Shown: positions 21,357 to 30,434 of the stretch, in pieces
Layout of the letters: each line of letters opens with the position of its first letter
How positions within the stretch are numbered: the stretch's first letter is position 1
Assembly: GCA_024228495.1 (NCBI GenBank)
Contig: JAAETJ010000297.1
Coordinates: forward strand, 1-33,524
Source: a bacterium
GTDB taxonomy: Bacteria > Pseudomonadota > Alphaproteobacteria > Rhizobiales > JAKIUO01
Length of the DNA: 33,524 nucleotides
Direction of reading: 5' to 3'
The notes under the pieces: model-generated
The model's input: the letters and a program-made list of their open reading frames with translations, nothing else
The model's database searches: none
What the model was told of the DNA's origin: nothing
Program-made: the position numbers and the translations under genes

Positions 21357-22010
21357 TTACTTGCTGGAACTATCTTCAAGATTATTATGGAGATAACCAT
21401 CGATCACCGCCATCAGATCTTCAATCCGGTTCTCGAAAAAGTGGTTGGCATTTGGAACAACAACATGGCCAATATCGATGCCTTTTTGGGTTTTTAATTT
21501 TTCAACAAGCGTTTGCACGTCTACAGCTGGTACGACCCGGTCGATCTCACCATTGACAATGAGGCCAGAGGATGGGCAGGGGGCCAGGAATGAAAAATCA
21601 TACAGATTGGCTGGTGGTGCTACAGATATAAATCCCTGCAATTCTGGCCGTCTCATCAATAGCTGCATGCTGATCCAGGCACCAAACGAAACACCAGCGA
21701 TCCAACAGCTAGTTGCTTCTTTGTTGATGGCCTGCATCCAGTCGAGGGCTGCTGCCGCGTCCAGCATTTCTCCCGCGCCATTGTCAAACAGTCCTTGGGA
21801 CCTTCCAACACCGCGAAAGTTGAAACGCAAAACGGAAAAGCCGCGTTGCACAAAGCTGTAATAGAGGTGATAGACAATCTGGTTATTGATCGTACCACCG
21901 AATTGGGGGTGGGGATGCAGGACCAGCGCGATGGGTGATTCTGGATCTGTGTTATGATGATAGCGGCCTTCAAGGCGGCCAGCAGGTCCATTAAAGACGA
22001 CCTCGGGCAT
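21357..22010 (-). CDS. Alpha/beta hydrolase (COG2945-like)
   Basis: 217 residues on the minus strand. The fold signatures are LVLHPHPQFGGTINNQIVYH near the N-terminus, RFNFRGVGRSQG, and the nucleophile elbow GVSFGA with S108. D157 (GEIDRVV) and H190 (NANHFF) complete a plausible triad. AGGAG lies 11 bases before the start. Related proteins are common next to suf or rlu genes in alphaproteobacteria, but the substrate is unknown. It converges on ATP12 with a one-base gap and diverges from iscR across a 356-base regulatory region. Confidence 0.88.
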   Translation of the reverse strand: MPEVVFNGPAGRLEGRYHHNTDPESPIALVLHPHPQFGGTINNQIVYHLYYSFVQRGFSVLRFNFRGVGRSQGLFDNGAGEMLDAAAALDWMQAINKEATSCWIAGVSFGAWISMQLLMRRPELQGFISVAPPANLYDFSFLAPCPSSGLIVNGEIDRVVPAVDVQTLVEKLKTQKGIDIGHVVVPNANHFFENRIEDLMAVIDGYLHNNLEDSSSK

Positions 22011-22125
22011 GAGTGTGATGCTCCTGCAATTGTTTTCAGATTGAACTGAATGGTTTTGGTACGTTTGACATGCCTGAAAAATGGACAGTCAAGAAACCAC
22101 CCCTGCGACAAAAGAGGCGGGCTAA

Positions 22126-22150
22126 ATGCTTGACTAATGCAGTCAGGAAT
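22126..22150 (+). promoter_or_regulatory. IscR type 1-like operator upstream of iscR
   Basis: The 25 bases carry the core TGACT-AATGC-AGTCA, a perfect inverted repeat, flanked by ATGCT and GGAAT. Compared from memory with the E. coli type 1 IscR consensus (ATASYYGACT, RWWWY, AGTCRRSTAT), 22 of 25 positions agree. It overlaps a -35-like TTGACT at 22130-22135, so IscR binding would block the promoter, consistent with autorepression of the operon. Confidence 0.75.
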
Positions 22151-22158
22151 TATACATC
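22130..22158 (+). promoter_or_regulatory. Candidate promoter of the isc/suf operon
   Basis: TTGACT at 22130-22135 is a five-of-six -35 element. Possible -10 elements are TATACA (22151-22156, spacing 15) or TACATC (22153-22158, spacing 17), so the exact -10 is uncertain. The resulting leader before iscR would be about 200 bases. Confidence 0.5.
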
Positions 22159-22226
22159 ATAACTATGGAATGTGAATGACCTGTTCAGTTTATACGTCCG
22201 TTTATATTCGAACTGAGCGATGATTT

Positions 22227-22242
22227 TAGACATTTTTGTCTA
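22227..22242 (+). promoter_or_regulatory. Perfect palindrome in the iscR leader
   Basis: TAGACA-TTTT-TGTCTA is a 16-base inverted repeat with perfect 6-base arms, 125 bases before the iscR start. It could be a second operator, for an Rrf2-type or iron regulator, or a small RNA hairpin. It does not match any iron-regulator motif I can recall with confidence. Confidence 0.4.
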
Positions 22243-22366
22243 CACGAATATGCAGGCCAAAAGCAAGTGAATTACGTCATGAGCATTGAAAACAGGGGCT
22301 TGAAACATCTGTTTGCCCCAACAATACGAATTTGGACCGTCTGGCAGCTGTTTATGGATGATTTGA

Positions 22367-22873
22367 ATGAAGCTTAATACCAAAGGTAGATATGCGGTGA
22401 TGGCAATGGCAGATATTGCCAAATGCGGTCAAGGAAAAGCCGGGAACAAGGCGGTTCCAATGGCGCGGATCGCTGAGCGCCAGCATATTTCGCTGCCTTA
22501 TCTGGAACAGCTGTTTTCAAAGCTTCGCCGCGAGGGATTGGTATCAAGTATGCGTGGCCCCGGCGGCGGTTATACTCTGGCGCGCCCTGCTTCCGAGATT
22601 TTTATCGGCGAGATCATGCAAGCAGTTGGTGAACCGGTAAAAATGACGAGGTGCAATCGCGAGAAAAATATTTCCGAAGGCTGCGTTAGCGGGGGTGACT
22701 GCAATACGCATGAACTCTGGAGCGCGTTGAGCGATCATATCTATACATTTCTTGTCAGCATCAGTCTTCAGGATGTCGTGGAAAAAAATGTCGGATCATT
22801 TGTGTCTCTGACCTCAAACCAGCGAGCAGTCATTAAAAAGAGTGACCCTGCAGCGGTCGAGGAGGCGATATGA
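22367..22873 (+). CDS. iscR: Fe-S cluster-sensing transcriptional regulator IscR (Rrf2 family)
   Basis: 168 residues. The winged helix begins MKLNTKGRYAVMAMADIAK, with the recognition region RQHISLPYLEQLFSKLRREG and wing SMRGPGGGYTLARP. The ligands for a [2Fe-2S] cluster are present: C96, C106, C112 and H115 in the order C-x9-C-x5-C-x2-H, versus C-x5-C-x5-C-x2-H in E. coli. This makes a true IscR more likely than RirA or NsrR. It overlaps the desulfurase gene by four bases (ATGA), and a near-consensus IscR operator lies upstream, indicating autoregulation. Confidence 0.93.
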   Translation: MKLNTKGRYAVMAMADIAKCGQGKAGNKAVPMARIAERQHISLPYLEQLFSKLRREGLVSSMRGPGGGYTLARPASEIFIGEIMQAVGEPVKMTRCNREKNISEGCVSGGDCNTHELWSALSDHIYTFLVSISLQDVVEKNVGSFVSLTSNQRAVIKKSDPAAVEEAI

Positions 22874-24081
22874 ACGTCAATCCACGCACGATTGACAGGG
22901 TTTACCTCGATCATAATGCGACCTCCCCTTTGCGCCAAAGGGTGCGGGATGCGATGGTCGAAGCCATGGATATTGCTGGCAACGCGTCTTCCGTGCATGC
23001 CGAAGGACGCAAAGCTCATGCTTTGATTGAGCGATCAAGGGAAAAGATTGCCGCATTGATGGGGGCAGATGCCGATGATGTGTTGTTCACCTCTGGTGGT
23101 ACAGAGGCCAATATAACGGCTTTGTCTCCAGGACTGGTTGCCAAAACGCCAGAAGATCGCGCTAGAGCCCTTTGTTTTGTATCAGAGGTTGAGCATCCAT
23201 CTGTACGCAAGGGCGGGCGGTTTGATCCCTTACAGGTTCGTACGATACCTGTCACACTGTCCGGGATTGTTGATCAGGACGCGTTCATAAAGATTCTCGA
23301 TGCTCATGAGCTTACCCCCTTGGCGGGTGAAAAGAGCAAACATCCATTCATTGTCTCGGTGATGCTTGCCAATAACGAAACCGGTGTTATTCAACCCGTC
23401 ACGGAGATTGCAGGCATCGTGCTTGAGCGTGGCGGATTAATGCATTGTGATGCAGTACAAGCACTGGGACGTATGCCATTCGATCTGGCCTCAATTGGTG
23501 TCGATCTCGTGACGATTGCCGCTCATAAAATTGGCGGACCAAAAGGTGTTGGTGCCCTGGTCGGGCCTGCGATTGATAATGTTTTGAACGATCCCTTGAT
23601 GATAGGCGGTGGTCAGGAGTTAAGACGCCGGGCTGGCACCGAAGATATTGTCTCTATTGCAGGTTTTGCGATAGCGGCCGAGGTTTCGTGTGAAGAGCTT
23701 GCAGATCGTGAAATGGTCAGGTTCCTACGCGATCGCTCTGAGCGGCGCTTGCACAATGAACATCCCGACTTGATTTTTTTTGGCAAGGATACTGACAGGC
23801 TGGACAACACGACATTCATGGCAATACCTGGGATTTTGTCACAAGATATGGTGATCGCCCTTGATCTGGATGGCATTGCAATTAGCGCTGGATCGGCGTG
23901 TTCCTCTGGTAAAGTCAAACAATCAAGTGGTCTTGAAGCCATGGGGGTGAGTGCCGATATTGCACGATGTGCCTTTCGTGTCAGCTTTGGACCACGGAAT
24001 TGGTTGAGTGACGTGGACCGGTTGGTCGCCTCCATCGCCAAAGCAGTCAAACAACATAAAAAAGCCGGAGCGATTGACTAA
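22870..24081 (+). CDS. Cysteine desulfurase, IscS/NifS-like (group I)
   Basis: 403 residues. It is a PLP enzyme that takes sulfur from cysteine for Fe-S assembly. VYLDHNATSPL opens the fold, TSGGTEAN binds PLP phosphate, and the Schiff-base lysine is K220 in AAHKIGGPKG. The catalytic cysteine C344 sits in SAGSACSSGK on an extended loop, which places it in group I rather than with SufS. Its start overlaps the iscR stop. A GAGGAGG ribosome binding site precedes the ATG. This is the first of two desulfurases in the operon. Confidence 0.93.
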   Translation: MNVNPRTIDRVYLDHNATSPLRQRVRDAMVEAMDIAGNASSVHAEGRKAHALIERSREKIAALMGADADDVLFTSGGTEANITALSPGLVAKTPEDRARALCFVSEVEHPSVRKGGRFDPLQVRTIPVTLSGIVDQDAFIKILDAHELTPLAGEKSKHPFIVSVMLANNETGVIQPVTEIAGIVLERGGLMHCDAVQALGRMPFDLASIGVDLVTIAAHKIGGPKGVGALVGPAIDNVLNDPLMIGGGQELRRRAGTEDIVSIAGFAIAAEVSCEELADREMVRFLRDRSERRLHNEHPDLIFFGKDTDRLDNTTFMAIPGILSQDMVIALDLDGIAISAGSACSSGKVKQSSGLEAMGVSADIARCAFRVSFGPRNWLSDVDRLVASIAKAVKQHKKAGAID

Positions 24082-24134: not shown

Positions 24135-25613
24135 ATGGCTGGCATACAGGACGAAACAATTGATCAGGTTAAAGATCTTGACGTCGACAAATATAAATAT
24201 GGTTTCACCACCGATATCGAAATGGACATGGCGCCCAAGGGTTTGTCTGAAGATATTGTGCGCTTTATTTCGGCCAAAAAGAACGAACCTGAATGGATGC
24301 TCGAATATCGCCTTGATGCCTATCGACGCTGGTTGAGCATGGAGGAACCAAGTTGGGCGATCCTCAACTATCCAAAAATTGATTTTAAAGATCTATATTA
24401 CTATGCCGCGCCAAAGCAAAAGGTGGAGCTTGATAGTCTTGATGATCTTGATCCCGTGATTTTGGCTACCTATGAAAAGCTTGGTATTCCGCTCAAGGAA
24501 CAAGAAATTCTGGCTGGCGTTAAAGGCACAAGGAACAAGGTTGCTGTGGACGCGGTTTTCGACAGTGTGTCTGTCGTCACAACTTTTAAAGATGAGCTCA
24601 GTAAGGCTGGTGTGATTTTTTGTCCGATCTCTGAAGCGCTGCAAACGTACCCCGAACTGGTGAGAAAATATCTGGGTTCCGTAGTGCCCGCAACCGACAA
24701 TTTTTACGCGACGCTCAATCAGGCGGTGTTCTCGGATGGCAGTTTTGTCTATATCCCGCCAGGGGTGCGCTGCCCAATGGAGCTGTCTACCTATTTTCGC
24801 ATCAATGCCGAAAATACAGGTCAGTTCGAGCGCACATTGATTATTGCCGACAAGGGCAGCTATGTCTCATATCTGGAAGGCTGTACGGCACCACAGCGCG
24901 ACGAGAACCAGCTTCATGCAGCCGTTGTTGAGCTGATCATCATGGATGATGCGGAAATCAAATATTCAACCGTGCAGAACTGGTATCCCGGCGATGAGAA
25001 CGGCAACGGCGGTATCTATAATTTTGTTACCAAGCGTGCCGATTGTCGGGGCCGTAATTCTAAAGTGAGCTGGACGCAGGTGGAAACTGGTTCGGCCATC
25101 ACCTGGAAATATCCCAGCTGCATACTGCGCGGTGATAATTCGCAAGGCGAGTTCTATTCTATTGCTGTCTCCAATGGTGCACAGCAGGTGGATAGTGGTA
25201 CCAAGATGATCCATCTGGGTAAGAACACGTCCAGCCGCATTATCTCCAAGGGGATTTCTGCAGGCAAGAGCTCCAACTGCTATCGCGGCCTTGTCTCTGC
25301 CCACCGGCGCGCAACAGGGTCGCGCAACTATACCCAGTGCGACAGCCTGTTGATTGGTGACAAATGCTCGGCCCATACGGTGCCCTATCTGGAAGCCAAA
25401 ACGCCAAGCGCCCAGTTTGAACACGAAGCAACGACCTCTAAAATATCCGAAGACCAGCTGTTTTACTGCATGCAGCGCGGCATGAACGAAGAAGAAGCCG
25501 TCGCGCTTATCGTCAATGGTTTTGTGCGTGACGTGTTGCAACATCTGCCCATGGAGTTCATGGCGGAAAGCCAGAAGCTCATTAGTATTAGTCTGGAGGG
25601 CAGTGTTGGGTAG
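24135..25613 (+). CDS. sufB: Fe-S cluster assembly scaffold subunit SufB
   Basis: 492 residues. It is a core component of the SufBC2D scaffold. The N-terminal region has [20 protein letters not shown], and the beta-helix contains [20 protein letters not shown]. Residues aligned to the E. coli sulfur path and cluster site are conserved: C250 (LEGCTAP, E. coli C254), C402 (TQCDSLL, C405) and E431 (FEHEATTS, E434). The N-terminal CxxCxxxC motif of E. coli SufB (region 90-110) is missing, as in many homologues. AAGGAAC is the ribosome binding site. The stop lies within the start region of the next small gene. Confidence 0.97.
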
Positions 25614-25848
25614 ATTGAAAAAAGCCCTTCGGTATATGCAATTAGCCGCATTAATTGTTGCTGCTGTATTTATGACCTGGATGTTTTTCTATGGAGATCT
25701 GAAATGGTCAGCCCTGTTTGATTCAGGAGGCGGGAGAGGAAAAGCTCTTCTTTTCTGGATTGTGATGTCGCCTGTAATTGTAGCTGTTTTGTTGGTTCAC
25801 GCGATCTATAAATTGACCAATGGTGAGACAGCAAATGAAGATGAATAA
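25606..25848 (+). CDS. Small two-helix membrane protein, unknown, inside the suf operon
   Basis: 80 residues from a TTG at 25606, six bases after GGAGG; a GTG at 25603 would add one residue but sits too close to that site. It overlaps the sufB stop by eight bases. A basic start ([12 protein letters not shown]) leads into a hydrophobic helix (about 12-28). A Gly-rich loop with [10 protein letters not shown] follows, then a second helix (about 49-67) and an acidic end, [10 protein letters not shown] recognise no family. Tight coupling to sufB suggests a membrane role tied to Fe-S assembly, but this is inference. Confidence 0.7.
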
Positions 25849-26170: not shown

Positions 26171-26923
26171 ATGCTGAAAATCGAAAACTTGCACGCAACT
26201 GTCGGAGGGTCCGAGATCCTTCGCGGAATTTCTCTGGAGATACCCAATGGGGAAGTGCACGCTATTATGGGGCCGAACGGGTCTGGTAAGTCCACCTTGT
26301 CTTATGTTCTGTCTGGCCGCGATGGCTATGAAGTGACCCAAGGGACCGCAATGCTCAATGGCACCAACCTACTGGATCTTGAGGTCGATGAGCGGGCCGC
26401 TGCCGGTGTTTTTCTGGCTTTTCAATATCCCCACGAAATCCCTGGCGTCGCGACCTTTATCTTCCTTCGCCATGCCCTTAATTCGGTGCGCGAAGCACGC
26501 GGACAAGAAGAGCTGACAACGCCAGATTTTATGCGCCTAGTCAAAGGCAAGGCTGCCGAGCTCGGCGTTAAGGACGAGATGCTTAAACGGCCATTGAATG
26601 TCGGCTTTTCCGGCGGTGAGAAGAAGCGCATGGAAATTTTGCAAATGGCAATTATGGAGCCGTCTTTGTGCATCCTTGATGAGACCGATAGTGGCCTTGA
26701 TATTGATGCCCTGAAAACTGTTTCGGAGGGCGTTAATGCGTTGCGCTCACCAGATCGCTCTATGCTGGTGATCACCCATTATCAGCGCTTGCTGGATTAT
26801 ATCGTGCCTGACAAGGTGCATGTGCTTTCCAGAGGCCAAATCCGCCACTCCGGCGGCAAAGAACTGGCGCTGGAGCTGGAAAAATCAGGCTATGCAGAAT
26901 TTGTCGGTGAAGACGCTGCGTAA
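26171..26923 (+). CDS. sufC: Fe-S cluster assembly ATPase SufC
   Basis: 250 residues, a cytoplasmic ABC-type ATPase without membrane partner. Walker A is GPNGSGKST (34-42), the Q-loop LAFQYPHEIPG (82-92) is the SufC-specific version, the signature is SGGEKKR (147-153), and Walker B is ILDETDSGLD (168-177). It drives conformational change in the SufBCD complex. The spacing of genes (sufD starts 21 bases later) indicates one operon. Confidence 0.97.
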   Translation: MLKIENLHATVGGSEILRGISLEIPNGEVHAIMGPNGSGKSTLSYVLSGRDGYEVTQGTAMLNGTNLLDLEVDERAAAGVFLAFQYPHEIPGVATFIFLRHALNSVREARGQEELTTPDFMRLVKGKAAELGVKDEMLKRPLNVGFSGGEKKRMEILQMAIMEPSLCILDETDSGLDIDALKTVSEGVNALRSPDRSMLVITHYQRLLDYIVPDKVHVLSRGQIRHSGGKELALELEKSGYAEFVGEDAA

Positions 26924-26944: not shown

Positions 26945-28294
26945 ATGACTGCTGTTACGAACATTCAAAAGACCGATGTTGAATTGGGGCTGGCCCAACA
27001 GTTCGACGATACGCGCGCCAATCTTCCCGGCAATGACTGGGTGGATACGCTGCGCGAGAACGCTATTCGGAGCTTTGCTAAACTTGGCTTGCCGCACCGG
27101 CGCGTCGAAGCGTGGAAATATACTGACCTGCGCTCAATGCTGAAAGAGGCCAAGACGCCAGCAGACAGCGATCTCAATAGCGTATCAGATGCGGATCTTT
27201 ATCAGGCGCTGGGAGCAGATCTGCATGGGTTGGGCGCTCACCATATCGTTTTTGTCGACGGCATCTATGATGAAGAAAATTCCTTTATCATCGGAGATGA
27301 GGCGGGTCTTGTTCACATGACCTCGCTGGCGGAAACTCTCGACAATCCCCCCGAATGGTTTATGCAAAACTTTAACAAGGTCAACCCTCGTGAGGATGAT
27401 CATGTGGTGGCTCTCAATACCGCCTTCATGCGCGATGGCGCCGTCATAGAGATCGTCAAGAATGCCAAGCTGAAGCGGCCGGTGCATTTGATTTCGGTCT
27501 CAAGTTCGGCAAGTGGGCAAGCCATTACTGAGCGTCACTTCATCCATGTTGAAGAAGGCGCCACTGCCACCATATTGGAAAGCTATGTGCATTTGTGTGC
27601 GCCTGATACACAGCGCAACAGCGTCACAGAGTTAAGTCTCGAAAAAAGTGCCAGGGTTAATCATGTCAAGTTTCAGCTTGAAGGTGTCAAAGCCGCTCAT
27701 TTGTCGAACTGGATGGTGTCGATTAGGGAGAGTGCCAATTATCGCGGATTTCAATTCACCATCGGCGCAAAAGTTTCGCGCAACACGATTAATGTGAATT
27801 TTGATGGCAGCCACTCTGAAGCTGATATTTCTGGCGTCGCCCTTTTGAGGGACGAGCAGCACGCTGACACTACAATGGACATCGTGCATGGCGTGCCTCA
27901 TACGCTAAGCCGCGAGTTGTTTAAAACCGTGGTGGATGATCGTGGCAGAGCAATTTTTCAAGGCAAGCTTACCGTTAAGCCAGACGCCCAGAAAACCGAT
28001 GCCAATCAAATGGCCCACGGCATGCTTTTGTCAGATACCGCCGAATTTGACGCCAAGCCAGAGTTAGAAATTCATGCGGATGATGTGGTTTGCGGTCACG
28101 GAGCAACATCTGGCGAGCTGGATGAGGACATGATGTTCTATATGCGCCAGCGCGGCATGAGCATGGACACCGTTCAGACCCTGCTTATTCTGGCTTTTGT
28201 CGGTGAATCGTTCGATCTTATCGAAGATAAAGAAATCCGCGCGGCCTTTATCGCAATGGCGCAAGCCTGGCTTGGAGGCAAAACTGGTGAATAG
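26945..28294 (+). CDS. sufD: Fe-S cluster assembly protein SufD
   Basis: 449 residues. It is the SufB paralogue that pairs with SufB in the scaffold. HRRVEAWKYTDLRSMLKEAK near residue 51 is the typical N-terminal motif. The C-terminal part has DVVCGHGATSGELDEDMMFY and RQRGMS, where the histidine of GHGATSG corresponds to the region of the cluster-binding H360 of E. coli SufD. Its last eight bases overlap the sufS start, indicating coupled translation. Confidence 0.95.
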   Translation: MTAVTNIQKTDVELGLAQQFDDTRANLPGNDWVDTLRENAIRSFAKLGLPHRRVEAWKYTDLRSMLKEAKTPADSDLNSVSDADLYQALGADLHGLGAHHIVFVDGIYDEENSFIIGDEAGLVHMTSLAETLDNPPEWFMQNFNKVNPREDDHVVALNTAFMRDGAVIEIVKNAKLKRPVHLISVSSSASGQAITERHFIHVEEGATATILESYVHLCAPDTQRNSVTELSLEKSARVNHVKFQLEGVKAAHLSNWMVSIRESANYRGFQFTIGAKVSRNTINVNFDGSHSEADISGVALLRDEQHADTTMDIVHGVPHTLSRELFKTVVDDRGRAIFQGKLTVKPDAQKTDANQMAHGMLLSDTAEFDAKPELEIHADDVVCGHGATSGELDEDMMFYMRQRGMSMDTVQTLLILAFVGESFDLIEDKEIRAAFIAMAQAWLGGKTGE

Positions 28295-29558
28295 CATGAA
28301 TAAATCCGGAGATCAGCTACGTGAAATACTCACCCCAAAACCGATTGATGTGCAAGCGATACGAGCGCAGTTTCCCATATTGTCACGAGAAATACATGGC
28401 AAGCCGCTGGTCTATCTGGATAATGGCGCATCAGCGCAAAAGCCCCAGGTAGTTCTTGATGCGATTCAGCAGGCTTATTCACAAGAGTATGCCAATGTGC
28501 ATCGCGGTTTGCATTTCTTGTCGAATACGGCAACCGATCATTTTGAAAAGGCCCGCAAATCTGTGGCGACATTTCTCAATGCGCCAGATGTCAATGAGAT
28601 CATCTTTACCAGTAACGCTACGGCCGCCATCAATCTGGTGGCATCGTCCTATGGTGGGGTAGCCTTTGAAAAGGGCGATGAAGTTATCCTTTCGGTAATG
28701 GAGCATCATTCCAATATCGTGCCGTGGCATTTCCATCGCGAGCGCAACGGCGTGGTTCTGAAATGGTCTCCTGTGTCGGATGATGGTGACTTCCTCATTG
28801 ATGAGTTTGAAAAACTGCTCAGTGATCGCACCAAGTTGGTGGCTATCACTCATATGTCAAATGTGCTTGGCACCATTGTGCCGATCAAGCAGGTAATTGA
28901 GCTCGCTCATGCCAGAGGGATCCCGGTACTGGTGGATGGCTCACAAGCGGCCGTTCACATGAGTGTCGATGTACAGGAGCTAGATGCAGACTTTTACGTC
29001 ATGACTGGCCACAAGCTCTATGGGCCGTCGGGCATTGGCGCGCTTTATGCCAAGCGTGAGTATCAAGAACGCATGCAGCCCTATATGGGCGGCGGCGAGA
29101 TGATCGAACATGTCACGACAGACGCGATCAGCTACGGCAAGCCCCCTCATAAATTTGAAGCGGGGACGCCGCCGATCGTTCAGGCCATCGGATTTGGAGT
29201 GGCCCTCGACTATATGATGGATATCGGATCAAAGGCCATCGAGGTTCATGAAGAGGACCTCAAAAACTATGCCCGCGAGAATTTGTGTAGGCTTAATGCC
29301 TTGCGTATCATTGGGGACGCCAAGGACAAGGGAGCGATCTTCTCTTTTAATATTGAAGGGGTACATGCCCACGATATCTCTACTTTGCTTGACCGCTCCG
29401 GTATTGCCGTTCGGGCCGGGACCCATTGCGCCGAGCCCTTGATGGCGCGCTTTAACGTCACCTCGACTTGCCGCGCGTCTTTTGCGATCTATAATACCCG
29501 TGATGAAGTTGATGCCCTCTGCGACGGACTGCGGCGAGCCAGCGCGTTTTTTACCTGA
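28287..29558 (+). CDS. sufS: Cysteine desulfurase SufS (group II)
   Basis: 423 residues from the GTG at 28287, eight bases after GGAGG (28274-28278) and overlapping sufD. The ATG at 28296 (420 residues) is an alternative with poorer spacing. PLP is held by K243 in MTGHKLYGPSG; the catalytic cysteine is C381 in RAGTHCAEPLM, on the short loop of group II enzymes. The start PILSREIHGKPLVYLDNGAS is typical. No sufE or sufU gene is visible nearby, so the sulfur transfer partner lies elsewhere or is dispensable. Confidence 0.95.
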   Translation: MNSMNKSGDQLREILTPKPIDVQAIRAQFPILSREIHGKPLVYLDNGASAQKPQVVLDAIQQAYSQEYANVHRGLHFLSNTATDHFEKARKSVATFLNAPDVNEIIFTSNATAAINLVASSYGGVAFEKGDEVILSVMEHHSNIVPWHFHRERNGVVLKWSPVSDDGDFLIDEFEKLLSDRTKLVAITHMSNVLGTIVPIKQVIELAHARGIPVLVDGSQAAVHMSVDVQELDADFYVMTGHKLYGPSGIGALYAKREYQERMQPYMGGGEMIEHVTTDAISYGKPPHKFEAGTPPIVQAIGFGVALDYMMDIGSKAIEVHEEDLKNYARENLCRLNALRIIGDAKDKGAIFSFNIEGVHAHDISTLLDRSGIAVRAGTHCAEPLMARFNVTSTCRASFAIYNTRDEVDALCDGLRRASAFFT

Positions 29559-29566
29559 TAGTCCTG

Positions 29567-30028
29567 ATGAGTAATCCCCGAATAATTGACAACATCAAAA
29601 GTAAAGCTGATGCCATGAATGACCAAACAACAGACGTTAAAGATACAGACGAAACAATCAAGATTCTCTCGATTGCCCAAGGCGGCACTCCGGTTGCAGG
29701 TTCCAAGCTGTCAAAAGAAGAGCTGAACGATTTGCGTCGTAAAATTGTTGCGGCAGTTAAAACCGTGCAAGACCCTGAAATCCCGGTTGATATATATGAA
29801 CTCGGACTTATCTATGTTATTGACGTCACTGATGACAAGAAAGTGCGCATCGATATGACCCTGACCGCACCAGGTTGTCCTGTGGCGGGTGAAATGCCAG
29901 GCTGGGTACACGATGCGGTCAGCGCTATTCCGGAAGTGACAGGCGTTGGCGTCAATATGGTATTTGATCCCCCCTGGGATCCAAATCAGATGTCTGACGA
30001 AGCCCGCCTTGAACTGGGTATGTTCTAG
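29567..30028 (+). CDS. sufT: SUF-associated Fe-S maturation protein SufT (DUF59/MIP18 family)
   Basis: 153 residues. An N-terminal extension of about 60 polar residues precedes the MIP18 domain: VQDPEIPVDIYELGLIYVID, MTLTAPGCPVAGEMPGWV with the conserved cysteine, and DPPWDPNQMSDEARLELGMF at the end. SufT homologues help load clusters into client proteins. The ribosome binding site before the ATG is weak, and a downstream ATG at 29612 is a possible alternative. It follows sufS after 8 bases. Confidence 0.92.
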   Translation: MSNPRIIDNIKSKADAMNDQTTDVKDTDETIKILSIAQGGTPVAGSKLSKEELNDLRRKIVAAVKTVQDPEIPVDIYELGLIYVIDVTDDKKVRIDMTLTAPGCPVAGEMPGWVHDAVSAIPEVTGVGVNMVFDPPWDPNQMSDEARLELGMF

Positions 30029-30047: not shown

Positions 30048-30434
30048 ATGATTGCGACCCCTAAACTGATGACCGTGAGCGACGCGGCGGCTGATCGTAT
30101 AAAGGCGATCATGGCAAAATCAGACGAGTCGCTGGCTGGCCTTCGCATCGGTATCGAGAATTCGGGCTGTGCAGGTGTTGCCTATACGATGGAATATGCG
30201 CAAGAAGCCATAAAAGGCGATGATGTAGTTAAAGATAACGGCGTCACATTGTTTATCGATCAAAAGGCTGTGATGTTTCTACTCGGCACAGAAATGGACT
30301 ACAAGGTCGATAAAATGGCCTCTGGTTTCGTTTTTGATAATCCTAACCAGACCAGCGCATGTGGTTGCGGCGAGAGTGTTGAGCTCACCGCCGTATCGAG
30401 CGATGCCCTCAACAGCTTTATGGCTGGGGACTAA
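30048..30434 (+). CDS. sufA: A-type Fe-S carrier SufA/IscA
   Basis: 128 residues from the ATG at 30048; a longer frame begins inside sufT and adds unrelated residues. The family pattern is the three cysteines C41 (NSGCAGVAY) and C105-x-C107 (SACGCGESV). This carrier hands clusters to apo-proteins. AAAGGTAGTG is the ribosome binding site. SufA versus IscA or ErpA cannot be separated firmly, but the place at the end of a suf operon favours SufA. The next gene starts two bases after the stop. Confidence 0.93.
   Translation: MIATPKLMTVSDAAADRIKAIMAKSDESLAGLRIGIENSGCAGVAYTMEYAQEAIKGDDVVKDNGVTLFIDQKAVMFLLGTEMDYKVDKMASGFVFDNPNQTSACGCGESVELTAVSSDALNSFMAGD

Follow-up and report, generated by a model that had tools for sequence, protein, structure and literature searches.

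A probable type 1 IscR operator within the core promoter of an iscR-iscS-suf operon from a member of the Rhizobiales

That IscR represses its own expression by way of type 1 sites is well documented for Escherichia coli and Pseudomonas aeruginosa (PMC12594620, PMC6599224), and a type 1 consensus, ATASYYGACTRWWWYAGTCRRSTAT, is printed in PMC6599224. The E. coli iscR promoter contains two adjacent sites, 25 bp apart, which agree with this consensus at 24 and 22 of 25 positions; the second of these contains TTGACC. In P. aeruginosa, site B of the iscR promoter is reported as a TTGAC-containing 25-mer at -42 to -18 (PMC6599224), with an extra site A upstream. Among alphaproteobacteria, the IscR of Rhodobacter sphaeroides, described as having a single cysteine and an Iron-Rhodo-box (PMC4618611), binds and represses its own iscR promoter (PMC4618611, PMC6956336). 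The isc-suf promoter P2 of that organism is described with an IscR box at -36 to -19 and a predicted Irr box at -13 to +1 (PMC6956336). The Caulobacter IscR carries Cys3His ligands; when iron is plentiful it represses isc-suf, and its binding peak there covers the -35 element (PMC11475020). At the isc-suf promoter, the same ChIP study reports little resemblance to its Type II motif. That alphaproteobacterial iscR genes are preceded by both an IscR box and an Irr box had already been predicted by Rodionov et al. (2006), as cited in PMC6956336, where Rhizobiales are stated to lack IscR homologues.

Here we analyze a 33,524-nucleotide stretch of DNA, hereafter the window, from a bacterium of the order Rhizobiales. 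A ribosomal-protein cluster and several other genes are followed by a minus-strand hydrolase gene, a 356-bp intergenic region and the iscR operon. The genes that concern us are as follows.

21357-22010, minus strand: alpha/beta-hydrolase gene, divergent from iscR (Pfam hydrolase families)
22367-22873, plus strand: iscR, Rrf2-family regulator (PF02082 above cut-off; ligands C96, C106, C112 and H115)
22870-24081, plus strand: iscS-like cysteine desulfurase (NifS/IscS family matches, none over its curated cut-off)
24135-25613, plus strand: sufB (NF008773, 898.9 bits, above cut-off)
26171-26923, plus strand: sufC (TIGR01978 above cut-off)
26945-28294, plus strand: sufD (TIGR01981 above cut-off)
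28197-29558, plus strand, as the listed ORF: sufS (TIGR01979 above cut-off)
29567-30028, plus strand: SUF-associated DUF59-type protein, SufT-like (TIGR02945 above cut-off)
30048-30434, plus strand: sufA/iscA-type carrier (TIGR00049 above cut-off)

The true start of sufS is probably downstream of that of the listed ORF, because the match to the family only sets in at residue 54. The sufA/iscA-type gene appears to start at an internal Met codon at 30048, within an ORF listed from 29946; against TIGR01997, scanned from 30039, the carrier scores 123.8 bits, below the cut-off of 136.2. Between sufB and sufC, at about 25636-25848 on the plus strand, lies a short reading frame likely to encode a membrane protein. 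The gene order iscR-iscS-like-sufBCDS-sufT-like-sufA differs from the iscRSUA-hscBA-fdx-iscX operon of E. coli. The R. sphaeroides locus is alike in operon type, in the IscR box placed over the promoter and in the upstream hydrolase gene on the opposite strand (PMC6956336).

The original prediction credited the downstream iscR product with all cluster ligands. The Cys3His set is indeed present, and C96, C106, C112 and H115 are invariant in all 22 aligned sequences; the three cysteines and one histidine are shared with the IscR of Caulobacter and set this protein apart from that of R. sphaeroides. The best-scoring family is TIGR02010, at 170.5 bits, which is below the curated equivalog cut-off of 207.55, so that by this model alone the protein would be called IscR-like; we name it IscR on the basis of its ligands, its synteny and its 47% identity to E. 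coli IscR, whose structure (4hf0) is also the nearest solved one. The DNA-contact residues of E. coli IscR are given as S40, Y41, E43, Q44 and R59 (PMC11475020). Four of the five are kept here, as Y45, E47, Q48 and R63; the fifth differs, S40 being replaced by P44.

We next describe the element proposed as the IscR target.

22126-22150, plus strand: type 1-like IscR operator, a 25-mer (22/25 consensus positions, shuffles, conservation and co-occurrence with iscR)

Its sequence is ATGCTTGACTAATGCAGTCAGGAAT, and the core TGACT-AATGC-AGTCA, at 22131-22145, is a perfect inverted repeat, as had been claimed. The agreement at 22 of 25 positions given in the original prediction also holds against the printed consensus. 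The runner-up 25-mer in the whole window reaches 18/25, and when the intergenic region (22011-22366, 356 bp) was dinucleotide-shuffled 5000 times, no shuffle scored above 20/25. Consensus, predicted role and ligand set are thus those of the E. coli iscR promoter, with the differences that the window has one site instead of two, and TTGACT in place of TTGACC; it likewise has no counterpart of the extra P. aeruginosa site A. The window copy is nonetheless weaker than those of its genus mates on a pooled matrix (24.7 versus 32.4-32.8; training median, 27.3), and has ATG instead of ATA at its left end.

The bare 10-base palindrome was rejected as evidence, for its genome-wide frequency is that of chance: TGACT-N5-AGTCA has one exact match in the window (22131-22145); the 5.1-Mb draft genome contains it twice and the reversed control pattern once, and the second genomic copy sits within a 519-residue reading frame. 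A search of the same genome for further type 1 sites, using a 21-base pattern with at most three mismatches, likewise gave 36 forward matches versus 39 for the reversed control, and fewer than two mismatches were seen only at the iscR site. Among the 28 scored of 69 other genomic places, the best (C297:711) reached 18.6, versus 25.8 for the iscR site, and falls in a long reading frame. Because the matches are at control level, and the best of those scored lies inside a reading frame, we claim no wider IscR regulon. The 5' leader holds a further inverted repeat, TAGAC-N6-GTCTA (22227-22242). We weighed it as a second operator but discarded it, since one genus mate (L006) keeps it whole but in two others (L004 and L005) it is broken.

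A scan of related genomes for the motif upstream of iscR, as the original prediction had proposed, bears out its conservation. Four of the five genus genomes contain iscR, and all four have the site, at 22-23 of 25 positions. The fifth genome (88% complete) yielded no iscR and no iscS-like gene; since both are absent, the operon was probably not assembled there. For the wider comparison we used an independent matrix, trained on 26 sites from gammaproteobacterial, betaproteobacterial and other non-alphaproteobacterial loci, all of which show a site of 18-25/25, and a site was called at p≤0.01 relative to the shuffles of its own locus. This matrix finds the site in 4/4 genus loci, in 60 of the 67 other IscR loci of the order, in 38 of 54 named alphaproteobacterial loci and in 36 of 69 further loci of the class, of which six matches are on the minus strand and are probably due to chance. 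From the 139 genomes of the class with a match, this set draws on 43 regions and on 26 of 29 fetched loci, those left once duplicates were removed. The order sets exclude three Rrf2 matches taken not to be IscR (L030, L031 and L032; 33-35% identity); the duplicates L126, L133, L139 and L190 were also left out, and in L207 tblastn detected no IscR.

Sites of the same kind and in the same place occur in loci of Rhizobiales, Hyphomonadaceae/Robiginitomaculum, Caulobacter, Brevundimonas, Neoroseomonas and beta- and gammaproteobacteria, with the right half decayed in Caulobacter and Brevundimonas; in the Caulobacter loci L060 and L067, the left half (ATACTTGAC) is like that of the window and the right half (GCTTGGTCTT) is not. 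No site was found within 600 nt of iscR in 16 of the 54 named alphaproteobacterial loci and 33 of the 69 class loci, and none was seen near iscR in many loci of the Azospirillum, Thalassospira and Rhodospirillales type. In several of these site-less loci the hydrolase gene is about 1 kb from iscR, and another gene therefore probably lies in between. The suggestion that an enterobacterial-like site is unusual in an alphaproteobacterium does not survive this comparison. Such sites are found in loci of Rhizobiales, Hyphomonadaceae/Robiginitomaculum and Neoroseomonas, and sites of this type had been predicted before (PMC6956336). The site is an ordinary one, and this type of switch is long known and common among relatives.

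The presence of the operator also follows that of the regulator. Among 61 relatives, 34 lacked an IscR match at E≤1e-25; 27 of these were searched with the iscS-like protein, and 26 gave loci. All 26 have sufB nearby, and 23 have the divergent hydrolase gene upstream, as in the window. An independent-matrix score of at least 8 is reached by 62 of the 71 IscR-bearing loci of the genus and order, versus 0 of the 26 IscR-less loci; for a score of at least 5 the counts are 67/71 and 2/26. Fisher p values for this contrast overstate the independence of the loci, which are related. The two IscR-less exceptions, L302 (7.8) and L304 (5.0), score above the weakest IscR-bearing loci. The IscR operator, therefore, tracks the iscR gene.

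The promoter elements assigned to iscR are the following.

22130-22135, plus strand: TTGACT, -35 element of the iscR promoter, within the operator (register over 71 loci)
22153-22158, plus strand: TACATC, -10 element, separated from the -35 element by a 17-nt spacer (positions 28-33 of the site frame, 71 loci)

TTGACT had been proposed as a -35 box covered by the operator, an assignment supported by the constant 17-nt spacing between it and a TATATC-like -10 element over the 71 loci. TTGA is invariant, C9 is present in 99% of the loci and T10 in 92%; the -10 composition at positions 28-33 is T83 A100 T87 A76 T69 C55 (percent). TTGACT-N17-TATATC is thus a fixed core promoter joined to the operator across the 71 IscR loci. 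The -10 element reads TATATC in three genus mates, and the TACATC of the window is poorer. Directly after it comes a near-invariant stretch, CATAACTATGGAATGTGAATGACC, shared by the four genus genomes with one base differing in L004; beyond this stretch, the 5' region has diverged among them. Based on this arrangement, transcription is predicted to start near 22165, which would place the operator at about -39 to -15, in comparison with -42 to -18 for site B of P. aeruginosa and -36 to -19 for the IscR box of R. sphaeroides.

Could the repeat mainly represent a strong -35 region, with its palindromy incidental? TTGACT is a good -35 sequence, the bare palindrome occurs at chance frequency, and TTGAC persists, anywhere on the operon strand, in 19 of the 23 syntenic IscR-less intergenic regions. 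Conservation over the 71 loci, however, extends beyond the -35 and -10 elements, to T18 (100%), C19 (90%), G21 (94%) and the AT-rich ends; TTGACT is retained without the right half in the IscR-less loci L310 and L312; and shuffles never attained the observed consensus agreement. We consider this explanation highly improbable.

Another explanation is that the operator mainly serves a promoter of the divergent hydrolase gene, and iscR only secondarily. A candidate for such a promoter overlaps the right edge of the operator.

22149-22176, minus strand: candidate divergent promoter TTCACA-N16-TATAAT (11/12 consensus match)

This element is contained in the near-invariant stretch behind the iscR -10 element, which takes the place held in many relatives by an Irr-box-like element. 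In the genus, its TATAAT is identical in 4/4 loci and TTCACA in 3/4. Because shuffles yield on average 1.0 promoter-like match in the same scan, it is put forward as a hypothesis only: plausibly, TTCACA-N16-TATAAT drives the hydrolase gene, with transcripts starting inside the IscR operator, and the hydrolase gene may thereby share this operator. An upstream antisense promoter, P5, is reported to drive a putative hydrolase gene in R. sphaeroides (PMC6956336), and the divergent hydrolase is widely kept in alphaproteobacteria: it is found upstream in 67 of the 70 other loci of the order (a count that includes the three non-IscR rows), in 53/54 named alphaproteobacterial loci and in 49/69 class loci. 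However, it is found in 0/26 gammaproteobacterial, betaproteobacterial and other loci, all 26 of which have the site; and the site vanishes with iscR, whereas the hydrolase gene remains in 23 of the 26 IscR-less loci. The hydrolase as the main client of the operator is therefore very unlikely.

The main rival to IscR is a RirA-like Rrf2 repressor, for which 22126-22150 would be, or would also be, an iron-responsive operator (IRO box). The RirA operator is defined as TGA-(N9)-TCA in PMC6386902, and TGACTAATGCAGTCA (22131-22145) fits this definition exactly; the IRO box of Rhizobium leguminosarum fhuA, given as TGACTAAAATAATCAT in PMC10510648, has its first seven bases in common with it. All five genus genomes encode a RirA-like protein, at 130-145 bits, under the cut-off of 193 bits; it may also be of the NsrR type (99.7 bits; cut-off, 182). 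In addition, TGA-N9-TCA is found in the intergenic region of three of the 23 syntenic IscR-less loci, namely L294 (TTGACGGCAAGGGTCA), L302 and L304 (TTGACTAGTGTTGTCA), and the genome of L304, G026, has the highest RirA score (290 bits) among the 27. Against this reading, a TGA-N9-TCA core is nothing out of the ordinary among IscR sites themselves, being present in 8 of the 26 gammaproteobacterial, betaproteobacterial and other loci and in 15 of the 54 Irr-box-bearing loci of the order. Also, six IscR-less genomes have RirA above the cut-off, but only in G026 is the pattern intergenic. Finally, in its recognition segment the RirA-like protein of the genus has SKAHLVKC, as opposed to SLPYLEQL in IscR. 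A RirA box at this position is thus unlikely, albeit less so than the two explanations above. As for the IscR-less loci, TTGACTAGTGTTGTCA is located 148 nt upstream of iscS in L304, and TTGACGGCAAGGGTCA 164 nt upstream in L294; the sequences suggest that in L304, and perhaps in L294, another Rrf2 protein can occupy the position of IscR.

It had also been noted that in alphaproteobacteria other iron regulators often take the role of IscR. To score Irr boxes we used TTTAGAA-N3-TTCTAAA, which we take to be the consensus, over 14 positions. With a threshold of at least 10/14, an Irr-box-like element such as TTTAGAATNNTTCGAA follows the -10 element, within 60 nt of the site, in 54 of the 67 order-level IscR loci that do not belong to the genus, where shuffles predict 2.7. 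Both kinds of site thus occur together in most of these loci, and the notion that Irr simply takes over from IscR is not borne out. Outside the order the element is seldom seen (in 6 of 54 named alphaproteobacterial loci, 6 of 69 class loci, and 0 of 26 gammaproteobacterial, betaproteobacterial and other loci), and several of the six named loci that have it are titled Rhizobiales, Bradyrhizobiaceae or Hyphomicrobium. One IscR promoter, L011 (G049), has a 13/14 element in a 99%-complete genome in which a FUR-family protein was not found.

In the genus of the window, by contrast with R. sphaeroides and its predicted box, none of the four loci showed an Irr-box-like element in the 60 nt that follow the site (best, 7-8/14), nor did one appear over 360 nt upstream of iscR (best, 8-9/14). 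The genus is not alone in this: the element is likewise missing from L007, the relative closest in IscR identity (62%), and from 12 other loci of the order. A link between the absence of the Irr box and an A at position 20 of the site is unsupported (Fisher p = 0.15). Irr itself is encoded in the genome of the window (L228; NF045678, 205 bits versus a cut-off of 150). A one-mismatch Irr-box-like site lies upstream of its rubrerythrin gene, with similar one-mismatch sites in three other genus genomes; across the five genus genomes, patterns with at most two mismatches show no excess over the reversed control (16 versus 16 in the genome of the window). The individual sites suggest a use of Irr boxes elsewhere in the genus, which the counts do not demonstrate.

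The IscR-less sister lineages present the mirror image of the genus, in that iscR and the operator are lost and the Irr box is kept. Among the 23 syntenic intergenic regions, 19 have an Irr-box-like element (at least 10/14; 1.2 expected from shuffles) and 16 a strong one (at least 12/14; 0.005 expected); over a fixed 450 nt in the IscR-less loci, the counts are 20 and 16, respectively. The importance of such boxes is tempered by R. sphaeroides, in which Irr is reported not to bind the predicted Irr box at the isc-suf promoter in vitro, and the effects to be no more than about two-fold (PMC6956336).

Taken together, these data make it very probable that the 25-mer at 22126-22150 serves as a type 1 IscR operator within the core promoter of the iscR-iscS-suf operon, through which holo-IscR would repress its own synthesis. 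The autorepression put forward in the original prediction is supported by the conservation of the site, by the promoter register and by the disappearance of the site from loci that have lost IscR. By analogy with known IscR proteins, we infer that binding and repression depend on the cluster. A [2Fe-2S]-IscR dimer would bind the inverted repeat, covering the -35 box and the spacer, and would thereby exclude RNA polymerase from the promoter; under iron or sulfur shortage, or upon cluster damage, IscR would lose its cluster, and the site would be freed and the operon induced. Since the genus promoter is missing an Irr-box-like element, cluster status sensed via IscR is probably its main direct iron input.

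What is mildly new is that this promoter has no Irr box although Irr is encoded, together with the mirror pattern in the IscR-less sisters. More tentatively, and with the odds somewhat against it, these observations can be joined in a single scenario, in which an ancestral promoter under both IscR and Irr was reduced to IscR alone, cluster status replacing Irr, and in which a TGA-N9-TCA operator shared by the divergent iscR and hydrolase promoters may admit a RirA-like paralogue.

Among the matches listed in a literature search that covered mainly journals without subscription, no title concerned IscR promoters of Rhizobiales. An IscR match at E≤1e-25 is present in 73 of the 297 sampled genomes of the order, four of them from the genus of the window, which qualifies the statement in PMC6956336 that Rhizobiales are without IscR. 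The present analysis extends the set of organisms with predicted IscR control of iron-sulfur assembly by a lineage of the Rhizobiales type. Within one order, the same operon is preceded by an IscR operator and an Irr box, by the operator alone, or by the Irr box alone, and this three-way series of promoters is suited to testing how two iron sensors combine or replace one another.
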